From: an uncultured Bacteroidales bacterium
GTDB taxonomy: Bacteria; Bacteroidota; Bacteroidia; Bacteroidales; F082
Direction: 5' to 3'
Length of the DNA: 64,000 bases
Assembly: GCA_900317055.1 (NCBI GenBank)
Contig: ONFF01000008.1
Span: 40,421 to 104,420, forward strand
In this document: positions 5,041 through 17,409 of the stretch, piece after piece
How positions within the stretch are numbered: position 1 is the stretch's first letter
Layout: the number at the start of each line of letters is the position of its first letter
Notes under the pieces: model-generated
What the model was told of the DNA's origin: nothing
Database searches by the model: none
Seen by the model: the letters and a program-made list of their open reading frames with translations, nothing else
Position numbers and translations under genes: made by a program

Positions 5041-8000
5041 ATGAAAAAACTAACTTTACTACTCGTCCTGTTTTTGGGCACTTTCCAATGGGCTTTTGCC
5101 GCTCCTCTAAAAAACATCCCTGTTCGCCTCACCCAACCCGATGGTCAGGTCATCGAATGCTTTGCCTCGGGCGATGAGTTCTACAACTATGTGCATGATG
5201 CCAATGGCTTCACCTTCGCGAAAGACAAAGATGGCTACTATTGCTATGCGATTCATGACAGTAAAGGTGAAGTGGTCGCCTCCACATACCGCGTCAACAG
5301 CGTTGACCCTGCCAAGGTCGGGCTTCAACCTTATGTGAAGATTTCCGAAAAAGCCTATCAGCAGCGTCGTCATGAACGCGAGCAACACATCAGGCCCATC
5401 AAACGGCCCAAAAACCGTGAGATCAACCATGGCATTTACAACAATTTGGTCGTCTTCATCCGTTTTGCGGGCGACACCTACCACAGCACGCATTTTTCGA
5501 CCGTCGACTCGATGTTCAATGCCTCGAACTACGAGTCCATCTCGCTGCGCAACTATTTCCATCATGCTTCCTATAACCAACTCGACATCCGCTCCTATTG
5601 CTACCCCGAACCCGACGGCGAGACCATCCTTTCCTACGAAGACGACTATCCGAAAGAATACTACATGCCTTTCGACCCCGTGACCAATCCCTTGGGTTAT
5701 CAGGAAGGTGAAAACGCCGAACGCGAGTTCTCCTTGTTAGAGCGCGCCATCTACTATGTGGCCGACCAAGTGCCCGACACCCTCGACCTCGACTACAACG
5801 ATGACGGCATGGTCGACAATGTGGTGTTTGTCATCAAGGGTCAGCCCGGCGAATGGGCATCATTGCTCTGGCCCCATCGTTGGTGCATCTACGACCGTTA
5901 TGTGCCGCTGAACGGCCTTCAGGTTTACGATTTCAACTTCCAACTTGAAATCGGTGGCTATTTCAATGTCAGCACACTCTGCCATGAGATGAACCATTCC
6001 TTGGGTGCGCCTGACTTGTACCATTATAGCGATGGTCCTGACCCAATAGGTCCTTGGGACCTCATGGGTGGCACCACCGAGCCTCCGCAACAAATGAGCA
6101 CATACATGAAATACAAATATGGTCACTGGGTGGATGAGATTCCCGTCATCAACCCAGAAACTGACGCTTTCGGCACTTACGAGCTGGAATCTGTCTCTTG
6201 GGAAGGCGGTCGCCGCAACGGCTATATGATTCCTTTGACAAATGACCAGTACTTTTTCGTTGAATACCGCGACAAGAACAATATTTTCGAAAGCCAGATT
6301 CCAGGTAGTGGTATGCTTATCTACCTCATCGACACCCGATTTGACGGCAATGCCGGATGGAACGGCAACGACTATCTTGACGAAGTTTATCTCTTCCGCC
6401 CCGGCGGAACCCCTAATGCTGTTGGCGACCTCGACCACGCCTATTTCAGCGAAGAATCGGGAAGAACATCCTTCAATACGGGCACCGACCCGCATCCCTT
6501 CATCCACAACCAACCCTATCAGTTTTACGACCCAGGCTTTGAAATCACCAACATCAGCAGAACTGGCGACAGGATGAGTTTCGACATTTTGCCTTCACCC
6601 GAGGGAGAGGGTGGCGGTCCATTAATCGAGAATTTCAATGTCAATGTCAACAGTATAGACCATCAGTTGGAATTCTCTTGGAATGCCATGCCTTATGCTG
6701 ACTACTACAAACTGTTTTGCGACGGTTCGGGCATCTCCCAGGGTATCACAGACACCACTTTCGTTTTCCCCTATACCGAAGCCGACAACGGGTATCACGA
6801 CTACAGCGTAATGTATGTCACTGGAGGGATGATGCACATTTATCACGCCGAAACCCACGCTTGGGCCATCCTAGGCAACTACGAGACCATCCATCTCTCG
6901 CTCAGCTGCGAATCGCCATACGGCACCAAAGGCGGCGAGTTGGAAGTGAGTTTCAACCATCCACAGATGCCTACACAGTATTTCACCATTTACGAAGGTA
7001 GCTTGAAGGATGCCGAACTATATGTACCCGCTAACACCGAGGTCACTTTCCGCTGGAATCCAGGCTTCGACCCTGACAGTGAAGGTATCCACCTCATGGC
7101 CAAGCATTTCAACGAAAACGGCGAAGGTACCATTTTTGACCTCGACCGTCCCCAAGCTGGTGTGGTGGCCACCTATACCGTAGCCGACTCTAGCTTAGGC
7201 TTAATCGCCCCACAGCATCTGACCGCCACCTCCAACGGCCAGAGCATCCAACTCAAATGGTCAATACCTACTGAAAACCGTAGTTTCGACATCTATCGCG
7301 ACGGCAGAAAGATAGCTTCACAAGAAAGCTACGGCTATCTCGACGACAAATTCACGCGTTCGGGCACCCATAACTACCATGTGGAAACCACCATCGGAGA
7401 CAATTCCTCATGGAACCCCGACAATTTAGCCTATGCCACCGCGATGAACTACTATTGTGAGCCACCGCAAAACCTCGAAGGCACCTACAATGACGGCCAT
7501 GTGGAACTCAGCTGGGAAGCGCCCGAGTCCGTTGGGCAAGGCATGTTAGCCTACGACGACAACGAGTTTATCGAAAAAGTCGCTAATAACAAATGGGGCA
7601 TCAAGATTGAGCCTAACCTCTTGGCTCATTTTGCTGGCCATCCGCTCACACACATCGAGATGTTCGACTGTTCCTCAGGACATTATACCTTCACCATTTA
7701 CAATGGCGTGACGGCCCACGACAGCACAACCCTTTACGAACAGGGACACGACATGGAAGCCAGCCATAGCTTCGTGAAGTTCGCCTTGGACGAGCCCGTC
7801 GAGTTCGACCCCACACTTCCTTTGTGGATTTGCGTCTCTACCTCGGGTGTCAACAAGCCCATCCCCTGCTGCAACTATGTCGGCGAGAGCAACAGCTGCC
7901 TATTCAAACAAGGTTCCACATGGAAACCCGCTGTTGATGCCGGATTACACCGTTCATGGTTGCTGCGTGCCTACACCAGCCCCATCGACGGTGGCAGCGA

Positions 8001-8442: not shown

Positions 8443-8649
8443 TCAGAATTCCTCTTCGCGCACAATGCCCATGAAGCCGAAGAGGCAGAGCAAGAGATAG
8501 ACAGGAAGCAATCCCACCAGGAAGGAAATGATACCACCCTTCCAGGTGGGTTTGTTCATTACAGGGCGTCCCATGGCCTTCGCCACCATGATGCCGACAA
8601 TAGTCAGCGCGACCAATACTGTTGCAATGATTAACCACATAATGCTCAA
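8443..8649 (-). CDS. Small two-span membrane protein
   Basis: 68 residues (or 65 from the second Met at 8640). Two hydrophobic segments, WLIIATVLVALTIVGIMVAK (about 5-24) and IISFLVGLLPVYLLLCLFGF (about 40-59), joined by a short basic loop (GRPVMNKPTWKGG), and an acidic tail REEEF. I do not recognise the family. It is convergent with the protease gene, with 3 bases between stops, and is followed upstream by the repeat island. The clean hydrophobic pattern and a start in good position favour a real gene over chance. Confidence 0.6.
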   Translation of the reverse strand: MSIMWLIIATVLVALTIVGIMVAKAMGRPVMNKPTWKGGIISFLVGLLPVYLLLCLFGFMGIVREEEF

Positions 8650-8730
8650 TTGTTTTTGTTAGGTTCGGCTTTGGAGGTGCAATAATCGTACCAGAGCATT
8701 AAGGGCTGAAGCTGTTTATCCTGTAGTTCA

Positions 8731-8784
8731 GCAGGCATGTCCTCCTTGCGTTGGCCTGTGCGTGGGCTTGGGATCTATGCCTGC
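8731..8784 (+). repeat. REP-like hairpin, family 1, copy 1
   Basis: Outer stem GCAGGCAT/ATGCCTGC encloses the core GTC...ATCT. The inner stem is weaker than in other copies (CTCC against GGGAT). The conserved loop GCGTTGGCCTGTGCGTGGGC is shared with copies 2, 4 and 5. Confidence 0.8.
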
Positions 8785-8959
8785 GGCTTGTCATTGTCAT
8801 CCGTCTTATTATGAAAACCCGACATTGCATATCGGGGTGTGATAGGGTCGTCCTTTGACCACGTCGAAATCTCTGATTCAGCGTAGCTAATCTTCGATTT
8901 CAGGACTTTGATGAACCACCCCTCATTCTCACGGAACGACAACACCTGCGCCCCTTGCC

Positions 8960-8988
8960 GTCATCGCGGGCACAGACCCGCGATCTCC
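8960..8988 (+). repeat. Short GTCAT-stem-ATCT hairpin, copy 1
   Basis: GTCAT, then stem CGCGGG/CCCGCG with loop CACAGA, then ATCTCC. The same flanks with a different stem occur at 9440 and 62373. Confidence 0.8.
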
Positions 8989-9039
8989 CTCACCGCAAGA
9001 GGGCTATCCCCTTGTCGTCGCTTCGCGTCATAGAGCGAA

Positions 9040-9093
9040 GCAGGCATGTCATCCCTGCGCTGGCCTGTGCGGGGGCATGGGATCTATGCCTGC
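9040..9093 (+). repeat. REP-like hairpin, family 1, copy 2
   Basis: Outer stem GCAGGCAT/ATGCCTGC; inner stem ATCCC/GGGAT between GTC and CTATG. Confidence 0.8.
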
Positions 9094-9100
9094 GGCTGTC

Positions 9101-9240
9101 TATTTCCGTCCCTTCTCCTTGATGAGAAGGGACCGAAGAATCAAGGCCGACATCAAGGGCCCTACACACATGGCAACCGCCCCTCCCCCATGTCGGCCGG
9201 GCCCGCGCGCCCAACCCAATCTGTCTTTGGCGTTCCCATT
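9101..9240 (+). repeat. About 140-bp direct repeat, copy A
   Basis: Matches 10405-10541 over nearly its whole length with scattered differences and small gaps. It begins with the hairpin GTCCCTTCT...AGAAGGGAC and ends in a GC-rich segment CCGGGCCCGCGCGCCCAACC. Both copies directly follow a family 1 hairpin. No gene product is implied. Confidence 0.8.
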
Positions 9241-9253
9241 CACTCAGAGCGAA

Positions 9254-9307
9254 GCAGCCATGTCATTCCTGCGTTGGCATGTGTGTTGGCTAGGAATCTA
9301 TGGCTGC
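9254..9307 (+). repeat. REP-like hairpin, family 1, copy 3
   Basis: Outer stem changed on both sides relative to copy 2: GCAGCCAT/ATGGCTGC. Inner stem ATTCC/GGAAT. Conserved GTC and CTATG are kept. Confidence 0.8.
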
Positions 9308-9439
9308 GGCACCTAGAAATCTGCCCATCTTATTATGAAAACCCGACATTGCATATCGGGGTGTGGTGGGGTCGTCCTTTCAGGACTCTGATGCTCTACC
9401 CCTCATTCTCATGGAACGACAATGCCCTCGCCCCTTGCC

Positions 9440-9468
9440 GTCATGGCGGACAAGGATCCGCCATCTCC
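9440..9468 (+). repeat. Short GTCAT-stem-ATCT hairpin, copy 2
   Basis: GTCAT then GGCGGA/TCCGCC with loop CAAGGA, then ATCTCC. Confidence 0.8.
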
Positions 9469-9624
9469 TACGCTCTTGGGACTCACTCCTGTCGTCGCTT
9501 CGCGTCATCGCGAGGAGGAACAACGAAGCGATCCATTTATGACAGATTGATGTAAGATTTGACTATGTCGAATGCAGAGCATTTATTTCCAAAAATAAAC
9601 ATCCATTTCATTTCCAACCACTTA

Positions 9625-9671
9625 CCCGACAGCAAACGACAGCAAACGACTACTGTCGACTACAAATGTTT
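9625..9671 (-). repeat. 47-bp dispersed repeat, copy A
   Basis: Same sequence as 27274-27320 in the opposite orientation with two mismatches; internally it repeats the 10-mer AGCAAACGAC. Here it lies about 60 bases upstream of the hypothetical gene at 9733. Confidence 0.8.
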
Positions 9672-9732
9672 AATCAACGGGTATGTCTTGACAGATGGCG
9701 TTTCTTTGTGGTAAAAAAATAAACGAACCACT

Positions 9733-10131
9733 ATGGAAGCACAAGACAACAAGACCGTTGTAGTCCCTATGGGTAATGCCATAGAAGACATCAAAGCAAG
9801 AGAAGCCATTATTTCCGATGTCTATAGATGTTGGTATGAGGCGAACCCTTCAAAAGCAGCGTATAACACAAACTTGAAAGACTATATCAACGTACGATTC
9901 CTGTCAATAAATGAAACCATTCACCATGCTTCAATGTCATATTTATCAACATTAGCAGTTCTTCAATTAGATCTGATTTTGAAAACAGCTCATCAAGTTG
10001 GAAAACCAGTGAAACCAAAACCAGACAACAAAAACCAAGCTGATTTTTCGAAAATACTCATCATGGAGTGTCCTTTAATTGGCATTGGCATAGCTAAACT
10101 AACCGTTGGGGTGAAAAAAAAACTGGCATGA
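9733..10131 (+). CDS. Hypothetical protein, probably frameshifted at an A9 run
   Basis: 132 residues, mostly helical, with no signal peptide, membrane span or catalytic motif I recognise. The sequence (VVPMGNAIEDIKAREAIISD, NLKDYINVRFLSINETIHHA, SYLSTLAVLQLD) looks like a conserved hypothetical family I believe is common in gut Bacteroidales, but that is memory, not a search. The frame ends in KKKLA right after nine A residues at 10114-10122. Shifting by one base there extends the protein to 10166 with the tail TGMKIQYCITAIET. This suggests a recent indel, transcriptional slippage or a sequencing error. A palindromic terminator-like stem follows. Confidence 0.65.
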   Translation: MEAQDNKTVVVPMGNAIEDIKAREAIISDVYRCWYEANPSKAAYNTNLKDYINVRFLSINETIHHASMSYLSTLAVLQLDLILKTAHQVGKPVKPKPDNKNQADFSKILIMECPLIGIGIAKLTVGVKKKLA

Positions 10132-10167
10132 AAATCCAATACTGCATTACAGCGATAGAGACATAAA

Positions 10168-10223
10168 AAAGACCGTCGGAGTTATAAAGGGCTTGGCAGT
10201 CGCCATTTCCCGTCCGACGGTGT
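10168..10223 (+). terminator. Terminator-like stem after the hypothetical gene
   Basis: ACCGTCGGA and TCCGACGGT form a 9-bp stem around a loop of about 30 bases, followed by GTTTTAT. It lies just after the extended (frameshifted) stop at 10166. Confidence 0.5.
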
Positions 10224-10343
10224 TTTATCTAAAACGCAGTAAATCCATGCAAAAGCCAATCTGCGTTTCACGCTGCAAAAATACAACTTTTCCACAAACC
10301 CGCAAGGGGGATGGGCGGTTTTTCTCTTTTTACCGATGCTCCA

Positions 10344-10397
10344 GCAGCCATGTCATGCCAACGCTGGCCTGTGCGTGGGCTTGGGATCTATGGCTGC
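10344..10397 (+). repeat. REP-like hairpin, family 1, copy 4
   Basis: Outer stem GCAGCCAT/ATGGCTGC; inner ATGCC against GGGAT (one mismatch). Conserved GTC and CTATG. Confidence 0.75.
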
Positions 10398-10404
10398 GGC
10401 TGTA

Positions 10405-10541
10405 TATTTCCGTCCCTTCTCCTTGATGAGAAGGGACCGAAGAATCAAGGCCGACATCAAGGGCCTACCGCACTTGGCAACCACTCCTCCCCCATGTTGG
10501 CCAGGCCCGCGCGCCCAACCCGGTCGAGATTTGGCGTTCCC
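10405..10541 (+). repeat. About 140-bp direct repeat, copy B
   Basis: Second copy of the block at 9101-9240, again directly after a family 1 hairpin. The 5' half is nearly identical; the 3' half has several substitutions. Confidence 0.8.
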
Positions 10542-10599
10542 GCTCACGGCATAAGGACAGAAAACAGCACGACAACGGATAACACTCCCGCCCCTTGCC

Positions 10600-10628
10600 G
10601 TCATCGCGGGCACAGACCCGCGATCTCC
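10600..10628 (+). repeat. Short GTCAT-stem-ATCT hairpin, copy 3
   Basis: Identical to the copy at 8960 in stem and loop. The following 45 bases (CACCGCAAGAGGGCTA...) are also shared with 8990-9035, so hairpin and spacer moved or duplicated together. Confidence 0.8.
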
Positions 10629-10672
10629 CTCACCGCAAGAGGGCTACCCCTTGTCGCGCATCATAGAGCGAA

Positions 10673-10726
10673 GCAGCCATGTCATCCCTGCGCTGGCCTG
10701 TGCGTGGGCTTGGGATCTATGCCTGC
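10673..10726 (+). repeat. REP-like hairpin, family 1, copy 5 (left flank of RAYT)
   Basis: Outer stem GCAGCCAT against ATGCCTGC has one uncompensated mismatch; inner stem ATCCC/GGGAT. It lies 79 bases from the 3' end of the RAYT gene. Confidence 0.75.
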
Positions 10727-10804
10727 GGCCTGTCATTGTCATCCGTCTTATTATGAAAACCCGACATTGCATATCGGGGTGTGATAGGGTCGGTCGCCTG
10801 TTTT

Positions 10805-11512
10805 TCATTCCTCATTCGATTCCTCATCCTTCCATTCCATCGGATTACGGACAATGTATTCAGCAATGTATTGGTATTCTATTACATCGCGGATGATATG
10901 GTCATAATAATTCGATTGCCACAGGGGATTGTTTTTGTTGAATTTTGCCATGGTCGGTTGGTTCGCATCAATCCAATCGTCAATCCGTTTGACCGTTGCC
11001 GATTTGAAACCGGCCACAAACGACGATATGGATTTGGGTTGGCGTTGGAATTGTGTGGGCATCAACGGTGTTGGGGCACATGTCCGTTGGGGTGTCGGTA
11101 TCGGTGTCGGTTGGGTTTGTTGGGTTTGGGGTTGCGATTGGGGTAGAGACGCACGGCCGTGCGTCTCTACAGGGCCGAACGACACATCCCCATGCGAACC
11201 ATCCCCACACGCCCCAACATCCATGCATTTCGTTTTGTCCAATATGACAATGGCATGCAAATGGTCGGGCATCAAAACGAATTCGCCCAAAAACAATTCC
11301 GTGCGCATCTCGAACGATTTGAAAAATTCGTCATAAACGATTTGTCCCCATTCGTTCAATACCATTTCGCCGTTCACGATTTCCCCGAACAACCTCTTAC
11401 GGCCAGCGGTGACGATGGTGATGTAATAATGCCCGTTGCGGGCATAATCCCATCCCCGCAAACGATTCGACGGAATCCTGTATTTGTCTTTGAATCTGTC
11501 TGGCATGTTCAA
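10805..11512 (-). CDS. REP-associated tyrosine transposase (RAYT, Y1/IS200-like)
   Basis: 235-residue single-strand DNA transposase of the Y1/HUH class. The N-terminal part has RGWDYARNGHYYITIVT, typical of RAYTs, and the HUH metal motif FVLMPDHLHAIVIL (His-Leu-His, about residues 76-89). The C-terminal part has NNPLWQSNYYDHIIRDVIEY and YIAEYIVRNPMEW, where the NYYDH tyrosine is the expected nucleophile. RAYTs bind and cleave REP hairpins but lack their own transposon ends. Family 1 hairpins lie on both sides (copies 5 and 6), supporting this pairing. Odd feature: between the two halves is a Pro/Gln/Thr-rich low-complexity insert of about 50 residues, whose DNA includes a perfect 28-bp palindrome. 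Confidence 0.88.
   Translation of the reverse strand: MNMPDRFKDKYRIPSNRLRGWDYARNGHYYITIVTAGRKRLFGEIVNGEMVLNEWGQIVYDEFFKSFEMRTELFLGEFVLMPDHLHAIVILDKTKCMDVGACGDGSHGDVSFGPVETHGRASLPQSQPQTQQTQPTPIPTPQRTCAPTPLMPTQFQRQPKSISSFVAGFKSATVKRIDDWIDANQPTMAKFNKNNPLWQSNYYDHIIRDVIEYQYIAEYIVRNPMEWKDEESNEE
11143..11170. repeat. Perfect 28-bp palindrome inside the RAYT gene
   Basis: GTAGAGACGCACGG followed by its exact reverse complement, no loop. It is read in frame as VETHGRASL within the low-complexity insert of the transposase. To my knowledge similar GTAGAGACGC palindromes occur as dispersed intergenic repeats in Bacteroidetes; only one copy is in this window. Confidence 0.9.
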
Positions 11513-11619
11513 TTCGAGGTCTCTTGATCATTATCGTTTTCGATGCAAAGATAATGGTTTTATCGTCCGTGGAATAGCTGAAAGCATCCTTTTTTGGCAG
11601 AGGGCACACAGCCAACTCA

Positions 11620-11672
11620 GCAGCCATGTCATGCCAGCGTTGGCTTGCGCGATGGCGGGCATCTATGGCTGC
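11620..11672 (+). repeat. REP-like hairpin, family 1, copy 6 (right flank of RAYT)
   Basis: Outer stem GCAGCCAT/ATGGCTGC. Inner stem ATGCC/GGCAT is a double compensatory change relative to ATTCC/GGAAT and ATCCC/GGGAT. It is followed by a hairpin CCTTTTGT...ACAAAAGG that replaces the CCCTTCT...AGAAGGG hairpin of the 140-bp repeats. Confidence 0.8.
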
Positions 11673-11733
11673 GGCCTTCTATTTTCGCCCTTTTGTCTTG
11701 AAACAAAAGGACCAACTTTGAACATGATGAGCA

Positions 11734-12750
11734 TTATATTTTCCCCATATTAAGAGCTCTCTCTAATGCAATTATTTCTCCTTCAGCAGTTACTACTCCA
11801 GATGACAAAAGACCAACAAATCTTTTACTATTGATGATGGGGTATAAAGACTCTAAAGAATAATCATTGATTGAAATGTACAACTTTTGCAAACCAAGCG
11901 CGAGTAGAGCGTTGGCTGAAAAGAAGAATAGTTCGTGTTTACGTAGAACGTTGTAAAACAAATCCGCTCGAGGACCTGACGTAGAGCCTTGTACCGATGA
12001 TGGGAGCAGGTCACATTCACGGCCTCCAATCACTAGAAACTTGGCTCGTTTAATACGGTCATCTACCAGCCCCAATTCTGTTTCATAAGCAATCATTTGG
12101 GACTCATATCTGCCTTCTGCCATCATGTGATTAAAGTCTACTTTTGTCTCTGCTATAAAAAGATAATTGTCTCTAGTATTCAGTAGGCTCACATCCAGCC
12201 TCCCTCCTCGATCTCTTTGGTTAATTTTCAGTCCCACCTCTAAAGAAAGCCGTGGCTCCAACGATACGCTAAGAAATTTCATTGCATTTGCTGTCCAGAC
12301 AGCAATGTTTTTTGTTTCGTCGACAGATGTGAAGGACTCAAAACTTTTATATTTTACAGTCAATTGGCTAATGGGAACTTTGGGCAATTGAATAAATGTT
12401 CCTTTAAAAAGTTTCGAAGCAGTCTTCTCTAATTCTAATAATTCTTCTGCCGTGATATCATAACAGAACTTCTCTGGATGGAATCTATTAGACAAAAGAA
12501 TCCTATTGCCCACACAACCAAACACACAAAACATGCAGTTTATACAACACTCATCTTTAACTGAGAACTTGCTAACCATGTCTTCGCCCTTCTTTAGGCA
12601 ACTGACTACTAATGGAACACTATGAGATGATTTACCTTTACTATGCTTTTCATCCTCTATAAAATTAGCAAGATACGAGTACTTGTACATTTGTAAATAT
12701 GCGCAAGGGGCATCAAGCTGGTTGTCTGCGTATAAACAAAACTTGCCCAT
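11734..12750 (-). CDS. Putative PD-(D/E)XK nuclease with ferredoxin-like cysteine cluster (R subunit candidate)
   Basis: 338 residues, cytoplasmic. Two visible parts. Residues 66-80, DECCINCMFCVFGCV, contain C69-x2-C72-x2-C75-x3-C79, the spacing of a [4Fe-4S] ferredoxin motif; further cysteines are at 5, 16, 51, 68 and 96. Residues 184-203, GRLDVSLLNTRDNYLFIAET then K203, give the D186 ... E201-x-K203 core of PD-(D/E)XK nucleases, with E171 as a possible helix residue. Last gene of a five-gene operon with two DNA methyltransferases; its ATG overlaps the preceding stop (TAATG). The obvious reading is the restriction nuclease of an R-M system. I do not recognise the exact family; the Fe-S cluster is unusual for one and makes a repair- or Cas4-like nuclease an alternative. 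Confidence 0.65.
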   Translation of the reverse strand: MGKFCLYADNQLDAPCAYLQMYKYSYLANFIEDEKHSKGKSSHSVPLVVSCLKKGEDMVSKFSVKDECCINCMFCVFGCVGNRILLSNRFHPEKFCYDITAEELLELEKTASKLFKGTFIQLPKVPISQLTVKYKSFESFTSVDETKNIAVWTANAMKFLSVSLEPRLSLEVGLKINQRDRGGRLDVSLLNTRDNYLFIAETKVDFNHMMAEGRYESQMIAYETELGLVDDRIKRAKFLVIGGRECDLLPSSVQGSTSGPRADLFYNVLRKHELFFFSANALLALGLQKLYISINDYSLESLYPIINSKRFVGLLSSGVVTAEGEIIALERALNMGKI

Positions 12751-13928
12751 TAATAGCTAAATTGATTTAGAAAGTTAATAACATCTTGCGGGGCGCCCAC
12801 CTCCAACTCATCCAGATTAAGCCCTTTTGCTGGTTGTAGATACAATTTCCCATTCATATATCTTCTTATGAACGGTATTCCTGCCATGAAGGCGATCTCT
12901 ATCTCTGTCGATATAGTTTCTTCCAAATCCTCTTCTGAAACCACAAATTTGTCTTTATCTTCTTTCAAAACATCGATAATATCACATAGAGAAATAGCAG
13001 TTTTGTTTTGAAAGGCGAGGTTAAGAAGAAACAGGATGGCGAATCGACGATTTTTAATTTTTGCTTCAAAAAACATCGTAGCTTCACGAATAACTGACTG
13101 GCCATTCTCTCTTAAACAGAAATTCATTTTTGTAAGATTATCATAATTGAGAGGTCTATCCGTTATCTCTGCATTAGGAAACTCAACAATTTCATATACC
13201 TGCTCCGTTCGATGCTCACTGTTGATATAATCACGGTAAGCGATGTGTGGATAAGGGGAATAATTTGAAGGTATAAAATGAACAGGCCTGATATAACCTC
13301 CCTGAATCAACCATGCTAATATGCACGATTTTGTTCTTGTATTTGAATCTTGCGTGGAACCAGCCGAAAGCTCTACCATTGAACCATTATATTTTACAAA
13401 TTCTGTAGGAGATGGATAACCCACATTTATTTCGCTGACATTAAAGGTGTCACCAGGGTTATAGCTTGAAAGACCATACATTACCCCAACGACTGGACCA
13501 TAATTCAATACCGCCTTTTTAATGATAGCTTGCATGTCAGCCGTTCCGTATTTGGCTTTAGCGAACCTGATGCCAAAAGAAGATATTCTAACCTTTCTTC
13601 CCACTCGTTCAACAAAGCCAAGTGCGTGCATTGCATTTATAGTGTTGCTTACTTCTTTTGACTTTGTCGTGTCGCTAAGAACACCATTTGTGATAGAGCA
13701 TCCAGCGTCATCAAGTGGATTTTCTTTGAATCGACAGTACTTGCCAACAAGATCGTCTTCGTTGAGCAATGTACAATACTGATGGATATTGATGGCATCG
13801 CGGTCAAACTTAACGTCTTTCAAATTAAACGAGTTTCCGTAGACACCAAATTTCTTTACAATTAACTGGGCGAGCGCATGCAAACACTCTATTCTAGCTG
13901 CAGCAGTACGATTGATAAGAAATGCCAT
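12750..13928 (-). CDS. Uncharacterised R-M operon protein with winged-helix-like N-terminal region
   Basis: 392 residues, soluble. Residues about 90-125 (SNTINAMHALGFVERVGRKVRISSFGIRFAK) look like a winged-helix: recognition helix, then a beta hairpin. A second helix-turn-helix-like stretch lies near 300-350 (RFAILFLLNLAFQNKTAISL, CDIIDVLKEDKDKFVV). No catalytic motif is evident. In the operon it sits between a 147-residue protein (2-base gap) and the Fe-S nuclease (1-base overlap), a position and coupling that suggest a DNA-recognition or specificity partner of the nuclease. This role is an inference; I do not recognise the family. Confidence 0.6.
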   Translation of the reverse strand: MAFLINRTAAARIECLHALAQLIVKKFGVYGNSFNLKDVKFDRDAINIHQYCTLLNEDDLVGKYCRFKENPLDDAGCSITNGVLSDTTKSKEVSNTINAMHALGFVERVGRKVRISSFGIRFAKAKYGTADMQAIIKKAVLNYGPVVGVMYGLSSYNPGDTFNVSEINVGYPSPTEFVKYNGSMVELSAGSTQDSNTRTKSCILAWLIQGGYIRPVHFIPSNYSPYPHIAYRDYINSEHRTEQVYEIVEFPNAEITDRPLNYDNLTKMNFCLRENGQSVIREATMFFEAKIKNRRFAILFLLNLAFQNKTAISLCDIIDVLKEDKDKFVVSEEDLEETISTEIEIAFMAGIPFIRRYMNGKLYLQPAKGLNLDELEVGAPQDVINFLNQFSY

Positions 13929-13930
13929 AA

Positions 13931-14374
13931 TTACATTATTGTCATGAATTCCACGTCAAGTTTTAATGAATCTAATGTCTGACGTATGCTCTGCTCTTCA
14001 ATGGCGTCTGAATATAAAAGCATACACTTGACATTCAATTGAGGAAAAGAATCTGAAACACTTTCCTTAAGTCGAGACAAGTCAATAGCATTACTATCTG
14101 TCGCGAACTTTGTTGATTTCTTATATAAGGTAATTGTATTTGCTTCCTTTGAAACCAAATCTATTCGTCGCGCCCTTAAACCATATTTCCATTCATAGTT
14201 TACCCGTATAAACACAGAACGGTCTTCCGATTCTAAACTGCTGGCGAAATACACTAAGGTATCCAACTCTTTCTTACAAGGCATGTGATAAAAGAATTGT
14301 TTTTCCTCACCGTCTGACGAGTTAGCTACAATCGAAGCCAGCGTACTATTTATATTTCCTTTGTAAATAGGCAT
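13931..14374 (-). CDS. Uncharacterised 147-residue R-M operon protein
   Basis: Alpha/beta protein with no signal peptide. Residues 72-93 (RRIDLVSKEANTITLYKKST and flanks) resemble the central hairpin of PD-(D/E)XK folds (an Asp on the first strand, a charged pair on the second), but the expected Glu-x-Lys is replaced by Tyr-Lys-Lys, so if related it is probably inactive. The rest (DLSRLKESVSDSFPQLNVKCMLLYSD) is an amphipathic helix and strand. Its start overlaps the second methyltransferase by 25 bases, indicating translational coupling. It may be a structural subunit or a DNA-binding accessory of the restriction part. Confidence 0.5.
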   Translation of the reverse strand: MPIYKGNINSTLASIVANSSDGEEKQFFYHMPCKKELDTLVYFASSLESEDRSVFIRVNYEWKYGLRARRIDLVSKEANTITLYKKSTKFATDSNAIDLSRLKESVSDSFPQLNVKCMLLYSDAIEEQSIRQTLDSLKLDVEFMTIM

Positions 14375-15192
14375 TGTTGGGAAACAATAGGGGTTAGTTT
14401 ATTTTTAATGAGCTTTATGTACTCTGAGTTCAACTCAAAACCTATGGATTTTCGTCCCAGTTCTTGAGCCGCTAAAAGAGTTGTTCCTGTTCCAGCAAAT
14501 GGGTCTAATACAGTATCACCCAAAAAACTATATAGTTTGATCAGACGAATGGGAAGCTCCTTGGGGAACGGAGCTGGATGACCTTCTGCTTTTGCCTTTG
14601 CTGGTTGCATCTCCCAAATAGAATTGATAGCCCATTTTTGCCACTCTTCGGTCGTGAGTTTTGATTTCTCTTTTATTTCTTTAGAAACAGGTGGGCGTTT
14701 CCCTTCTTTTGAGAAAACCGTAATCCATTCGTAAGGATATGTTGAGAAGATATTGGGCGGATAAGGGTAGCTGCCAAACGAACTAAATCTTGCTATCTTT
14801 CTCTTGTCCCAGATGTATAATCCGAATTGATACATACATCCAGTTGAATTCATGAACGATTCGATATCGCCCAACACCAATCTGGTTTCACGCCGGCCAA
14901 ATCTTGCGGCCTTACCTGTAAGAAGGAATGGCATGATGTTAATGCAAATTTTTCCATCAGGAACAAGAACTCGAACGCATTCTTTCCATACTTTATTCAG
15001 TTCACTAAGATAGTAGTCGTATGAGCTGCTGCCTTTACCAATTTGACCGTCAACATCGTAATCTTTTAATGTCCAATAAGGAGGACTGGTTATTATCAGA
15101 TGAACACTCTCGTCTGGGACAGCGCTCATATCACTTGAATCATGATTGAACACCGTAGCTTCACCTAATACCAATTTGCTTATTTTGTCCAT
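14350..15192 (-). CDS. DNA N4/N6 methyltransferase, beta-type motif order
   Basis: 280-residue SAM-dependent DNA methyltransferase. Catalytic motif IV TSPPY is at 35-39 and the SAM-binding motif DPFAGTGTT at 230-238, with the target-recognition region between them (about 90-215). This order (catalytic first, SAM last) is the beta class. TSPPY rather than DPPY is most frequent in N4-cytosine enzymes but is also found in some N6-adenine ones, so the modified base is uncertain. It overlaps the first methyltransferase by 13 bases. Having two methyltransferases of different class suggests protection of the two strands of an asymmetric recognition site. Confidence 0.88.
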   Translation of the reverse strand: MDKISKLVLGEATVFNHDSSDMSAVPDESVHLIITSPPYWTLKDYDVDGQIGKGSSSYDYYLSELNKVWKECVRVLVPDGKICINIMPFLLTGKAARFGRRETRLVLGDIESFMNSTGCMYQFGLYIWDKRKIARFSSFGSYPYPPNIFSTYPYEWITVFSKEGKRPPVSKEIKEKSKLTTEEWQKWAINSIWEMQPAKAKAEGHPAPFPKELPIRLIKLYSFLGDTVLDPFAGTGTTLLAAQELGRKSIGFELNSEYIKLIKNKLTPIVSQQCLFTKEI

Positions 15193-16214
15193 ATTACAAT
15201 CTGCTCCTTTCTTTCTGTTTTATTAATTGCATCAAAAACTTTTGAACTTGTACCAGAATAGGATCGTTCCACAATGGAGTAGTGTTCGAATGGACTTATG
15301 GCTTGGAAGTACTCGGCGCCATTAATCACTTTTCCGTGTATTTTCTTGTCGCCTACCACAAATATAACCTGCCCTCCAGGTTTGAGAACTTTGTAAAGTT
15401 TGTTAAGGACAGTTTTCATATCCTCTTTGTAGTTCTCAAAGTTCTGTATAAGACGTGATCTAATCTGAATCCTTTCGTAGCCTAAGATATCGTAAATAAT
15501 TCTTGCGTAATAGGCTGTATAGTCAAGACAATCGAAATATGGTGGACTTGAAAATATGAAATCTACAGAATTAGGTTTGATGATCTTGTCGAGATTTCTA
15601 CTGTCTTCATAATAAACTGTACTGTCATTTGCTATCGGAAGGAAATGCTTTTTTACCTTCAATTGAAGCTTTTCATAAAAAGGAATGTATCTCTTAGGCT
15701 CAATGTTCTTTCCAACCGTACTCGATGTCCACTTGTAGTCATTGCACCCTCTTGCCGTTAAAGCAATTGTGCCAAGAAAACACGCCTTCACATAATCAGA
15801 CATTTTATCATAGAAAACAGAAAGCCTCATGATTTCATCAAGAGACTTCTCATGAAAAAGACTTGTTGGATAGTCTGCTGCGGTTGGCACCTCAGAAAGA
15901 GCATTTGCTTTATTGATTAAACTATCGACTTCGTCTTTCACTTCATGGAAAGACAAGGGAATGTGTATTTTCCCATTTGACAAAGTAACAGCGATAGGGT
16001 TAGCGTCAACACCAATTGTATGCAAGCCATATTTCAAGCCTTCATACACAATTGTCCCTGAACCACAGAAGGGGTCGAGAACAACACTGCCTTTTGGCAT
16101 TTGAGACAAAATCTGCTCCGCATCTAATGCAGCAATTTTCCCACGATATGGATATATTCCATGTATAGAACATGGATTATTGACTGATTTTAGTTCTTTG
16201 ATTATAAAATCCAT
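15180..16214 (-). CDS. DNA methyltransferase, SAM-motif-first order
   Basis: 344 residues. SAM motif I DPFCGSGT is at 47-54 with GVDANPIA just after (acidic residue binding SAM ribose), and motif IV SSPPY at 222-226, followed by a region with VLKPGGQVIFVVGDK. The motif order is opposite to that of the neighbouring methyltransferase (alpha- or gamma-like), and about 170 residues separate the two motifs, including a likely recognition domain. SSPPY points to exocyclic amino methylation. First gene of the five-gene minus-strand operon; the upstream 220 bases hold a large nested hairpin. Confidence 0.85.
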   Translation of the reverse strand: MDFIIKELKSVNNPCSIHGIYPYRGKIAALDAEQILSQMPKGSVVLDPFCGSGTIVYEGLKYGLHTIGVDANPIAVTLSNGKIHIPLSFHEVKDEVDSLINKANALSEVPTAADYPTSLFHEKSLDEIMRLSVFYDKMSDYVKACFLGTIALTARGCNDYKWTSSTVGKNIEPKRYIPFYEKLQLKVKKHFLPIANDSTVYYEDSRNLDKIIKPNSVDFIFSSPPYFDCLDYTAYYARIIYDILGYERIQIRSRLIQNFENYKEDMKTVLNKLYKVLKPGGQVIFVVGDKKIHGKVINGAEYFQAISPFEHYSIVERSYSGTSSKVFDAINKTERKEQIVIWTK

Positions 16215-16276
16215 CTACGCATATAGCTTTATAAGCGAATGGACTTCTATTCGAATGACAATGGGTTCGCAAAAAA

Positions 16277-16436
16277 GGACCTCAGGACACAATAAAAGCG
16301 TGAACCGCCCTTATCGATGTCCTAAGGTCCTCGGATGACCCATTTCTAATCATAAGTCCAGCCCACGCTATTGCGTAGGCGCTGGTACCTATTCGAATTA
16401 GAAATGTCGTTTGAATTTCCGAGGTTCTAGGACATC
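16277..16436. promoter_or_regulatory. Large nested hairpin upstream of the R-M operon
   Basis: Outer stem: 16316-16334 pairs with 16419-16436 (GATGTCCTA/TAGGACATC and CCTCGG/CCGAGG). Middle stem CATTTCTAAT (16341-16350) with ATTAGAAATG (16397-16406). Inner stem CCAGC (16358-16362) with GCTGG (16381-16385). Tip ACGC-TATT-GCGT (16365-16376). In addition 16277-16289 (GGACCTCAGGACA) can pair with 16318-16330, the same strand used by the outer stem, so two folds exclude each other. It lies 63 bases from the first methyltransferase start. It may be a regulatory leader or a palindromic mobile element. Confidence 0.65.
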
Positions 16437-16572
16437 ATCGAATATAGCACAAACGCTGTGTTATTATTTAGTTGTTTATCGTTGTTTTATCTCTTCTTCG
16501 TTATCGGTTTTGTTAGTATTTGGAGTTGTATTTTGCTGCAAAGATAGTAAAAATCTTCACTTCATATAATTG

Positions 16573-16716
16573 TTATTTCTTAGTTTTAGTACCGAAGAGC
16601 ATATGCTGCTGGTAGAATTCTTCGTTAATGAGTTCTTCGGCAACGACTTTCTTGGTGATATTATCACAATGCTTACTGATGGCTAGCACATTTTCGGGAT
16701 TGTAGTTGCCATCTAC
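16573..16716 (-). pseudogene. Remnant of an unidentified gene 3' end
   Basis: A 47-codon open stretch ending in TAA reads VDGNYNPENVLAISKHCDNI and continues to QQHMLFGTKTKK. It has a protein-like composition but no start codon: a stop precedes it directly and the first Met is near its end. It lies downstream of the truncated-looking gene at 16806, past that gene's terminator. Probably the surviving end of a gene lost by rearrangement. Family unknown. Confidence 0.45.
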
Positions 16717-16732
16717 TTAGTCTATAAAAAGT

Positions 16733-16762
16733 CTCCCCACAAGCCAAACGGCTCATGGGGAG
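16733..16762 (-). terminator. Rho-independent terminator for the 143-residue gene
   Basis: CTCCCCA and TGGGGAG, extended by AAGCC/GGCT, form a strong stem. On the minus strand it is followed by ACTTTTTATAG, so it fits the gene ending at 16806. Confidence 0.7.
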
Positions 16763-16805
16763 GCAAAAGGCAGCAGTGACCGAAGTCAAGCTGCTGCCTC
16801 GGGCA

Positions 16806-17237
16806 TTACGCTACTCTTGTGGAGTCAGCGTTTTCGGGAAGGTCGTTGGAGGTGCGCTCGTCGGTGTTTTGCTCATCGACGTTTTCGGGCGATTCCTCAT
16901 CTTCCAAGTCCTCGTCACTCTCGTCCTCATCGAAGTCTTCCATCGCTTTCCTGACCTTGTGCTTGTAGGTCTTGTTGAGGTCGGTGATTAGGCCAACCAC
17001 ATAACCGTAGTCCTTGCCGTAGGTGTCAGGGTCTTTGAAGGCCATGCCGTCGAGATAGACTAACAGCCTCTCCAATTTGGCAGCGGCCTCACGCTTCAGT
17101 TCGAGCTTGCACTTCTGAGGCTTGGCCTCATTGCGCAAATCCTGAACTGTCATAAGCCTTTGTAACAAGGCTTCCATCGCGCTTCTGACATTCTTGATGC
17201 GTGCTTCCAAGCCCGGGATCTCTTTCGACGCCCGCAC
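16806..17237 (-). CDS. Hypothetical protein, N-terminus probably replaced
   Basis: 143 residues: a helical, Lys/Arg-rich part (KNVRSAMEALLQRLMTVQDL to KHKVRKAMEDF) and a very acidic tail (DEDESDEDLEDEESPENVDE). No known family. The first about ten codons lie on the opposite strand of a fragment of a secreted-protein gene (17216-17366), so the original N-terminus seems to have been lost and an accidental start taken over; Met21 (MEALLQRLM) is an alternative start. The terminator downstream is intact. Confidence 0.45.
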   Translation of the reverse strand: MRASKEIPGLEARIKNVRSAMEALLQRLMTVQDLRNEAKPQKCKLELKREAAAKLERLLVYLDGMAFKDPDTYGKDYGYVVGLITDLNKTYKHKVRKAMEDFDEDESDEDLEDEESPENVDEQNTDERTSNDLPENADSTRVA

Positions 17238-17366
17238 GACCGATTACGAGAGCCGCTTCAAGCTGGTGTTCGTTTGCGTGGACAAATGACGACAATGATT
17301 TTGCCTTCTATAGCAATGGCAGCTTCGCTGATAACTGCAAACTGAACAACTCCCAACTCTAAACTC
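17216..17366 (+). pseudogene. Fragment of the C-terminal region of a secreted repeat protein
   Basis: Plus strand reads SFDARTTDYESRFKLVFVCV then DK and a stop; one base later in the next frame it continues DNDFAFYSNGSFADN. The phrase DYESRFKLVF...DNDFAFYSNG is typical of the segment before the sorting domain in secreted Bacteroidales surface proteins. The rest of the gene is absent. It shows that an old surface-protein locus was broken here. Confidence 0.6.
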
Positions 17367-17409
17367 TAAACTGACTCTAAACTCTAAACTCTAAACCCTA
17401 AACTCTCAA

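Follow-up and report, generated by a model that had tools for sequence, protein, structure and literature searches.

Enzymes of the FokI type, in which recognition and cleavage share one chain, and the type IIT enzymes R.BspD6I, BtsI and BsrDI, which consist of separate subunits and in general are accompanied by two methyltransferases (according to the available part of PMC4081073), are the described systems closest to a five-gene cassette that we analysed in an uncultured Bacteroidales bacterium. The window, that is, the whole stretch of 64,000 nucleotides (nt) under study (contig ONFF01000008.1 of assembly GCA_900317055.1, positions 40,421 to 104,420), carries two predicted DNA methyltransferase genes (M1 and M2) and the genes of three further proteins (X3, X4 and R5) behind a structured leader RNA. 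We consider it probable that this is a split type II restriction–modification (R-M) operon behind a covarying leader RNA that acts as a switch in cis.

With FokI the cassette has in common an asymmetric-site logic with two methyltransferase activities and the resemblance of X4 to the recognition domain; recognition and cleavage, as proposed here, would lie on separate chains. Four annotated FokI-like plasmid genes adjoin single Dam-family methyltransferase genes, unlike the cassette with its two. In the type IIT enzymes the large subunit bears recognition and one active site, whereas X4 has no recognised active site, and we know of no counterpart of X3 or of the cysteine-rich R5 in these enzymes. 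R5 can be likened to restriction enzymes with a cysteine metal site: NotI holds iron in a Cys4 site and BslI, PacI and DpnI need zinc (PMC4081073, same part). R5 is unlike them in its ferredoxin-like CxxCxxCxxxC spacing and its eight invariant cysteines, and none of the four is among its Pfam or PDB sequence matches. That source already documents two-subunit enzymes accompanied by a pair of methyltransferases, as well as Cys4 metal sites, which makes the cassette less novel. FokI-like helix-turn-helix modules occur in BrxA of BREX, and iron–sulphur in DndC and related proteins (PMC12839542, PMC10853773); the available parts of these two papers do not describe the cassette.

The leader has analogues of another kind. 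Like riboswitch and attenuator leaders it stands 5′ of its genes, has mutually exclusive covarying stems and ends near a start codon; unlike them it belongs to no Rfam family and is common to unrelated restriction types, and only some of its copies have a clean U run. Controller (C) proteins likewise concern the timing of R-M expression (PMC6237814, available part), and here an RNA, not a protein, precedes the operon.

The cassette and its conservation

The five genes, given in the order of their transcription (aa, amino acids), are:

15180-16214, minus strand: M1, 344 aa, predicted DNA methyltransferase, motif I ahead of motif IV (SSPPYF)
14350-15192, minus strand: M2, 280 aa, predicted DNA methyltransferase, motif IV (TSPPYW) ahead of motif I
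13931-14374, minus strand: X3, 147 aa, no family match, possibly a small PD-(D/E)XK-like subunit (by eye)
12750-13928, minus strand: X4, 392 aa, putative FokI-like DNA-recognition subunit, no recognised cleavage domain
11734-12750, minus strand: R5, 338 aa, candidate PD-(D/E)XK nuclease with an N-terminal cysteine-rich region

An earlier reading of the DNA alone (the original prediction) had described five overlapping or nearly touching genes, richer in A/T than their neighbours, and both points stand: the five open reading frames (ORFs) are spaced by overlaps of 13 and 25 bases, a gap of 2 bases and an overlap of 1 base, and G+C is 0.38-0.39 in the four 1-kb windows of 12001-16000 against 0.43-0.50 in two 1-kb windows on each side. 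That they form one operon is supported.

The co-occurrence of all five, for which the original prediction had proposed a neighbourhood search, was found: a scan of public genome contigs with R5 led to six further cassette loci, five of them with all five genes in the same order and the sixth, L003, on a contig that begins inside M2 and keeps the rest. Across the five genes, divergence of the window from L004 and L006 was 0.006-0.082 at nonsynonymous sites (dN) and 0.27-1.55 at synonymous sites (dS); dS was saturated against L005 and L007. All five genes are under purifying selection, and because the gene order recurs in six loci and dN lies well below dS, the cassette is more than a chance assembly. 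X3 evolves fastest (28% identity to L007, where M1 has 71%). The M1 and leader analyses excluded L003, owing to its truncated contig, and the X4 alignment and the dN/dS table excluded L002, where M2 is broken by an in-frame stop and X4 is likewise interrupted (5666-6992), a state that may reflect decay or an assembly error. The flanking genes vary between loci, so the cassette has probably moved between genomic places.

R5 was found in 1 of 393 genomes of the order (the window's own) and in 3 of 173 genomes of the family, again counting the window's own, the other two apparently being the L002 and L006 contigs. Searches with the cassette proteins (relatives of R5, X4 and M1 being sought) returned none from viral contigs; R5 had no relatives among phages or plasmids and X4 none among plasmids, and against 395 genomes of the phylum X4 gave, besides the window's own, two weak, interrupted matches only. 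Relatives of M1 were about 23-32% identical among the matches listed, and the neighbourhoods opened (6 of 53 plasmid records and three genomes) carry other genes and are therefore uninformative on X3 to R5. At two loci (L034 2885-7623 and L035 6539-11270) distant M1 relatives adjoin large proteins, 853 and 1236 aa long, that by eye resemble kinases and may mark another defence system.

Predicted functions of the five proteins

As originally predicted, two of the proteins appear to be DNA methyltransferases: in Pfam, M1 matches N6_N4_Mtase (E 4.1e-15) and MethyltransfD12 (E 1.4e-6), and M2 matches N6_N4_Mtase (E 1.1e-46). Their motif orders are indeed opposite: DPFCGSG precedes SSPPYF in M1, and TSPPYW precedes DPFAGTG in M2. 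The original prediction took this opposition as the expectation for an asymmetric site, which holds for the presence of two methyltransferases and not for the order of their motifs. SPPY motifs usually signal N4-cytosine enzymes; the solved relatives of M2 include both N4-cytosine and N6-adenine enzymes. Together, M1 and M2 would supply the two methyltransferase activities of an asymmetric-site type II R-M system.

The recognition domain of such a system would be supplied by X4. An X4 profile built from six sequences matches FokI in the PDB over residues 108-167 (E 0.004), and in hhalign residues 95-220 align with residues 117-255 of a reference made from four FokI-like plasmid enzymes, each cut to its first 385 residues (probability 87%, P 4.1e-6); the score of 50.2 was reached in 0 of 200 column shuffles, the best of which scored 23.0. 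By these comparisons X4 is a distant relative of the recognition half of FokI. Its 392 residues come close to the length of that domain (385 in the cut used; presumably about 387 in FokI itself), and the chain stops after the recognition part, so the FokI combination of recognition and cleavage in one chain is absent. At E 0.001 the window's genome has no match to PF09254. Proteins that do match it (L022, compared by BLAST only, and L023), and a 586-aa protein of Helicobacter, gave no alignment with X4 or R5 and were set aside. In a Lactobacillus johnsonii plasmid (L026 3724-5546), a FokI-like gene is, by eye, split into two overlapping ORFs within the recognition part.

R5 unites two motifs, as had been noticed from the DNA:

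12514-12546, minus strand: R5 C69-x2-C72-x2-C75-x3-C79, kept in 7 of 7 sequences
12142-12195, minus strand: R5 D186...E201-x-K203, kept in 7 of 7 sequences

The original prediction would have been abandoned had the cysteines proved variable. Eight cysteine positions (5, 16, 51, 69, 72, 75, 79 and 96) are invariant in all seven sequences, as conserved ligands of an iron–sulphur nuclease would be. Against L007, the N-terminal part is identical at 67 of 141 positions and keeps 8 of the 9 cysteines that the window's R5 has there; its single C-terminal cysteine is lost in L007. Weak matches to Fer4 and NuoI (E 0.024-0.18) are near noise, because the unrelated FmdA_AmdA matched one R5 member better in the same scan (E 0.0089). 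An iron–sulphur cluster in R5 is possible, given the ferredoxin-like spacing together with those weak matches. For a nuclease, D186, E201 and K203 are invariant in 7 of 7 sequences and the fold comes from a low-confidence model, whose C-terminal half shows, in order, a helix, three strands, helices and a strand. Foldseek with this model ranked FokI first (E 0.048) and the small subunit of BspD6I nineteenth (E 0.76), all matches being weak and the ranks between them held by unrelated enzymes and some viral nucleases. A relationship of R5 to the FokI cleavage domain by sequence was rejected on the basis of hhalign, Pfam gave no match to that domain, and FokI thus stays a weak fold lead alone.

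X3 had no family below E 0.1 in Pfam, NCBIfam, PADLOC or PHROGs, no convincing solved relative and no FokI signal; by eye, its conserved acidic and YK positions and the expected alternation resemble a small PD-(D/E)XK fold, and we infer no more than that resemblance. The original prediction called the two proteins between the methyltransferases and R5 unrecognised: none of X3, X4 and R5 has a family at a curated or convincing score in these four collections, and X4 does have recognisable kin in FokI. The proposal of an undescribed defence system is weakened: since X4 resembles the FokI recognition domain, a new way of arranging type II R-M is the likeliest reading, not a new kind of defence. 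The best reading of the cassette is thus a type II R-M system with recognition and cleavage on separate chains. M1 and M2 would each methylate one strand of an asymmetric site, X4 would locate that site, and R5, with X3 as a small partner, would cut DNA that lacks the methyl marks.

Several observations weigh against this reading. The AlphaFold2 (AF2) models of R5 and X4 are poor (mean pLDDT 46.3 and 49.7). Fold matching of the X4 model put a Wadjet protein first, with winged-helix repressors among those behind it, and FokI is absent from the 50 best; as far as such a model goes, these matches are consistent with winged-helix DNA binding and are not FokI-specific. Comparison of R5 with the FokI cleavage domain gave an hhalign probability of 1.8%, a result reached by 2 of 200 shuffles, and X3 has no test in its favour. 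The repressor-like matches of X4, and the complete D/ExK set that R5 has on its own, would fit a type II system with X3 or X4 as its regulator and R5, acting alone, as a conventional restriction enzyme. We regard this as unlikely, given that X4 aligns at the equivalent position of the FokI-like recognition domain and has nearly its length. Still less probable is a non-nuclease role for R5 as a metal-cluster enzyme, such as one in redox chemistry or sensing: its cysteine spacing and the weak Fer4/NuoI matches speak for this, and the invariant D/ExK residues in a predicted alpha–beta core, with weak fold matches to FokI and the BspD6I small subunit, speak against it. Recognition and cleavage on separate chains therefore remain our preferred account of the cassette.

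The leader RNA and its distribution

The original prediction missed a further element, which lies between a promoter-like box and M1:

16539-16546, minus strand: promoter box TAnnTTTG (TATCTTTG), Bacteroidetes-type -7, 73 nt before the leader
16212-16465, minus strand: structured leader RNA (model R1), about 250 nt, ending with the ATG of M1
16419-16434, minus strand: 5′ strand of stem A, pairing with 16318-16334
16318-16334, minus strand: middle strand, common to stem A and to the terminator-like hairpin T
16275-16332, minus strand: terminator-like hairpin (stem T), its base continuing into TTTTTT in the window

Comparison of the cassette DNA showed that the roughly 250 nt ahead of M1 are conserved with paired changes in L002, L004, L005 and L006, and the RNA fold of 16212-16460 has a z of -9.1. 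In alignment A7 (15 leader copies, 74 pairs), 98.7% of cells are paired, and 15 pairs and 63 cells carry double changes, which 0 of 500 shuffles reach; slid controls leave 29-44% of cells paired. Many pairs are maintained by G-U (for example columns 138-189, 151-177 and 90-103). As kinship alone can beat shuffles without any structure, the slid controls and the copies outside A7 weigh more. In 41 such copies (L062 and 40 divergent ones found with model R1, a covariance model whose E-values are rough by the tool's own statement), the outer P3 is 97.7% paired (shuffle maximum 53.1) and the 15 pairs of lower T are paired in 83.8% of cells (shuffle maximum 68.4). The existence and structure of the leader are thus well supported.

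Two partners are available to the middle strand: the 5′ strand, with which it forms stem A, and the 3′ strand, with which it forms stem T. Stem A, which is not part of model R1, has 95.4% of its cells paired in A7, with 18 double-change cells, beyond every shuffle, and slid controls of at most 47.7%; in the 41 outside copies 76.3% of its cells are paired, where shuffles reach at most 65.0 and slid controls 35-60%. Both exclusive stems thus beat shuffles and slid controls (in cells paired and double changes in A7, and in cells paired in the 41), so that, two measures of stem A given below excepted, mutually exclusive stems under selection are found here as in attenuators and riboswitches. Two exclusive covarying stems suggest a cis-acting switch.

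Of the 41 outside copies, 26 end exactly at the ATG of an ORF of at least 60 codons and 33 lie within 12 nt of one. The motif TAnnTTTG, which we take to be the consensus of the Bacteroidetes-type -7 box, stands no more than 130 nt upstream in 29 of these 41 divergent copies (mononucleotide-shuffle mean 2.4, maximum 7). Given the end at the ATG and the box upstream, the element would appear to be, in most copies, a 5′ leader between promoter and first gene. Two other identities were rejected. Rfam 15 has no family at threshold in the window stretch or in eight loci, and its best match within 16000-17400, mir-5881 (24.9 of 87 bits, E 0.004), a hairpin far below threshold, was judged chance. A small protein is contradicted by the window, L051 and L055, in which the third codon is a stop and the stems persist; by eye, the frame is open in one copy, L052.

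BLASTN with the leader stretch found it in 14 of 173 genomes of the family, a count that includes the window's genome and two genomes with a partial match; a second copy in the window's genome was among the matches. Model R1, whose search is blind to genes and which was built from copies before two kinds of operon (the window's cassette and the PLD/SNF2-helicase operon), found it at E <= 0.01 in 45 of the 90 genomes searched in the genus. Outside the genus it turned up in 12 of 81 genomes from the order, each representing another family; the weakest and shortest of these matches are doubtful, and some of the weaker ones are just 160-190 nt long. The window's genome holds three copies (in the window, in C12 and in C21), some further matches being antisense shadows. 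The copy in C12 (L051 8810-9057) stands before a PLD/SNF2 helicase and a type IIG enzyme, and that in C21 (L129 4104-4349) before a methyltransferase of 1231 aa that includes a type I specificity domain.

Behind near copies of the leader stand PLD/SNF2 (HKD+Snf2) helicase and type IIG operons, identified by scanning in L051 and L053 and by length and start in others; L058 has a shortened first gene, and in L062 a helicase with type III genes follows. From about 90 places of R1 in the genus, near copies and antisense shadows included, 40 divergent ones were fetched with best scores first; five within the score range were left out (G445:C55, G478:C45, G477:C22, G488:C44 and G505:C4), G445:C55 and G488:C44 for want of downstream sequence. 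The Pfam scan covered 38 first genes, L123 and L125 (under 100 aa) being omitted, and gave N6_N4_Mtase 9 times, N6_Mtase 7, D12 4, EcoRI-type methylase 3, HSDR_N 3, ResIII 2, PLD 2 and DarT once. DNA methyltransferases make up 22 of the 38 (BLAST clusters of 9, 4, 3, 2 and 2, one member each scanned singly, and L102 and L114), with type I, EcoRI, Dam-like and type III kinds among others. We judge the link of the leader to R-M operons to be strong. In L112 (2335-4062) the leader precedes a DarT-like ADP-ribosyltransferase, apparently membrane-anchored, and no methyltransferase. In L099, L103 and L108 the first genes, directly behind the leader, encode proteins of 283-293 aa that form one family without recognised relatives, possibly new restriction or defence proteins.

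Full-text searches on structured RNAs linked to R-M or methyltransferases, preprints and most subscription papers aside, brought up no paper that, to judge by its entry and the opening of its abstract, describes a leader of this kind. The main text of a survey of structured RNAs in the human microbiome (PMC8040213) contains neither 'restriction' nor 'methyltransferase', and the leader may be among the unnamed candidates of that survey's supplementary motif lists.

A proposed switch before restriction operons

If these elements are combined, a Bacteroidetes-type promoter would transcribe the operon through the leader of about 250 nt, which would act as a cis-acting switch, either an attenuator or a translational control, setting the amounts of methyltransferases and nuclease. 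Such a switch might serve, for example, during establishment of the operon in a new cell, or respond to a metabolite such as S-adenosylmethionine. Translational control and attenuation are equally open, because the U run is imperfect in most copies and a terminator scan did not report the hairpin.

A number of results count against this account of the leader. Two measures of stem A in A7 are unremarkable, since 261 of 500 shuffles attain its number of pairs with double changes (3) and 361 of 500 its number of further pair types (5), and for the whole structure 57 of 500 attain the number of further pair types; one of the 13 stem A pairs is unpaired in 8 of 15 copies, and the model-fitted alignment favours stem T. 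The leader hairpin is absent from the output of a simple terminator scan, and where the window has TTTTTT at the base of stem T, most copies carry TTCTTTGTTT or TTCTTCGTTT, not a clean U run. The methyltransferase figure of 22 of 38 is a raw count, not an enrichment over a background rate. Behind twelve of the 40 divergent copies stands a first gene that could not be assigned to restriction or defence (L096, L099, L103, L107 (HAD), L108, L113, L116, L120, L121, L123, L125 and L132), some of them judged through a cluster or joint scan only and L123 and L125 unscanned. In L007, finally, the cassette is present without the leader.

The same element might instead act as DNA, that is, as a folded single-strand or cruciform recombination site at which defence modules are exchanged behind a fixed promoter. 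It stands before unrelated operons, the homology of near copies ends at the start codon, the cassette sits in different flanks from genome to genome, and a REP/transposase island adjoins it in the window, all of which such a site would explain; the many pairs kept by G-U, as an RNA would keep them, and the position of most copies at or near a start codon with a promoter box upstream make this rather improbable. A trans-acting defence RNA (guide, decoy or toxin-binding) that lies upstream by happenstance would suit so large, stable and conserved an element, followed as it is by DarT-like and other non-methyltransferase genes too, and is the least probable of these, as it ends at the start codon in 26 of 41 copies, its partner proteins are varied, and no shared RNA-binding protein was noticed, no dedicated search having been made. 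We therefore continue to favour a switch in cis.

The repeat island that the original prediction placed at the cassette's border is present at 8723-11713 (stretch searched, 8600-12000) and contains an ORF at 10805-11512 with a match to the IS200-like Y1 transposase. It resembles a system of repetitive extragenic palindromes (REP) and their associated transposase (RAYT), a 65-nt unit recurring in up to six copies around the Y1 ORF, and L002 and L006 also have related repeats behind the cassette. Upstream of the leader, a stretch at about 16575-16720 common to the window, L002 and L006 resembles, by eye, the end of a broken gene, and is perhaps the 'gene scar' of the original prediction.

The leader family is, in our view, the more surprising part of these findings, more so than the cassette, and its function is inferred. 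A wider reading, which we offer tentatively and at somewhat less than an even chance, is that an undescribed family of leader RNAs provides a shared control of Bacteroidales immunity, with one switch design before type I, II, IIG and III R-M operons and at least one DarT-like gene, the window adding a split FokI-like system with a possible iron–sulphur nuclease. An incoming R-M operon endangers the recipient cell unless the synthesis of methyltransferase and nuclease is properly ordered, and the known solutions to this timing are controller proteins, antisense RNAs and promoter arrangements. If the proposal is true, a restriction enzyme that divides recognition and cleavage between chains would be useful for the study of modular nucleases, the leader would be a marker by which defence operons can be found from RNA alone, and one RNA design common to unrelated restriction types would constitute a general answer to the problem of expression timing.

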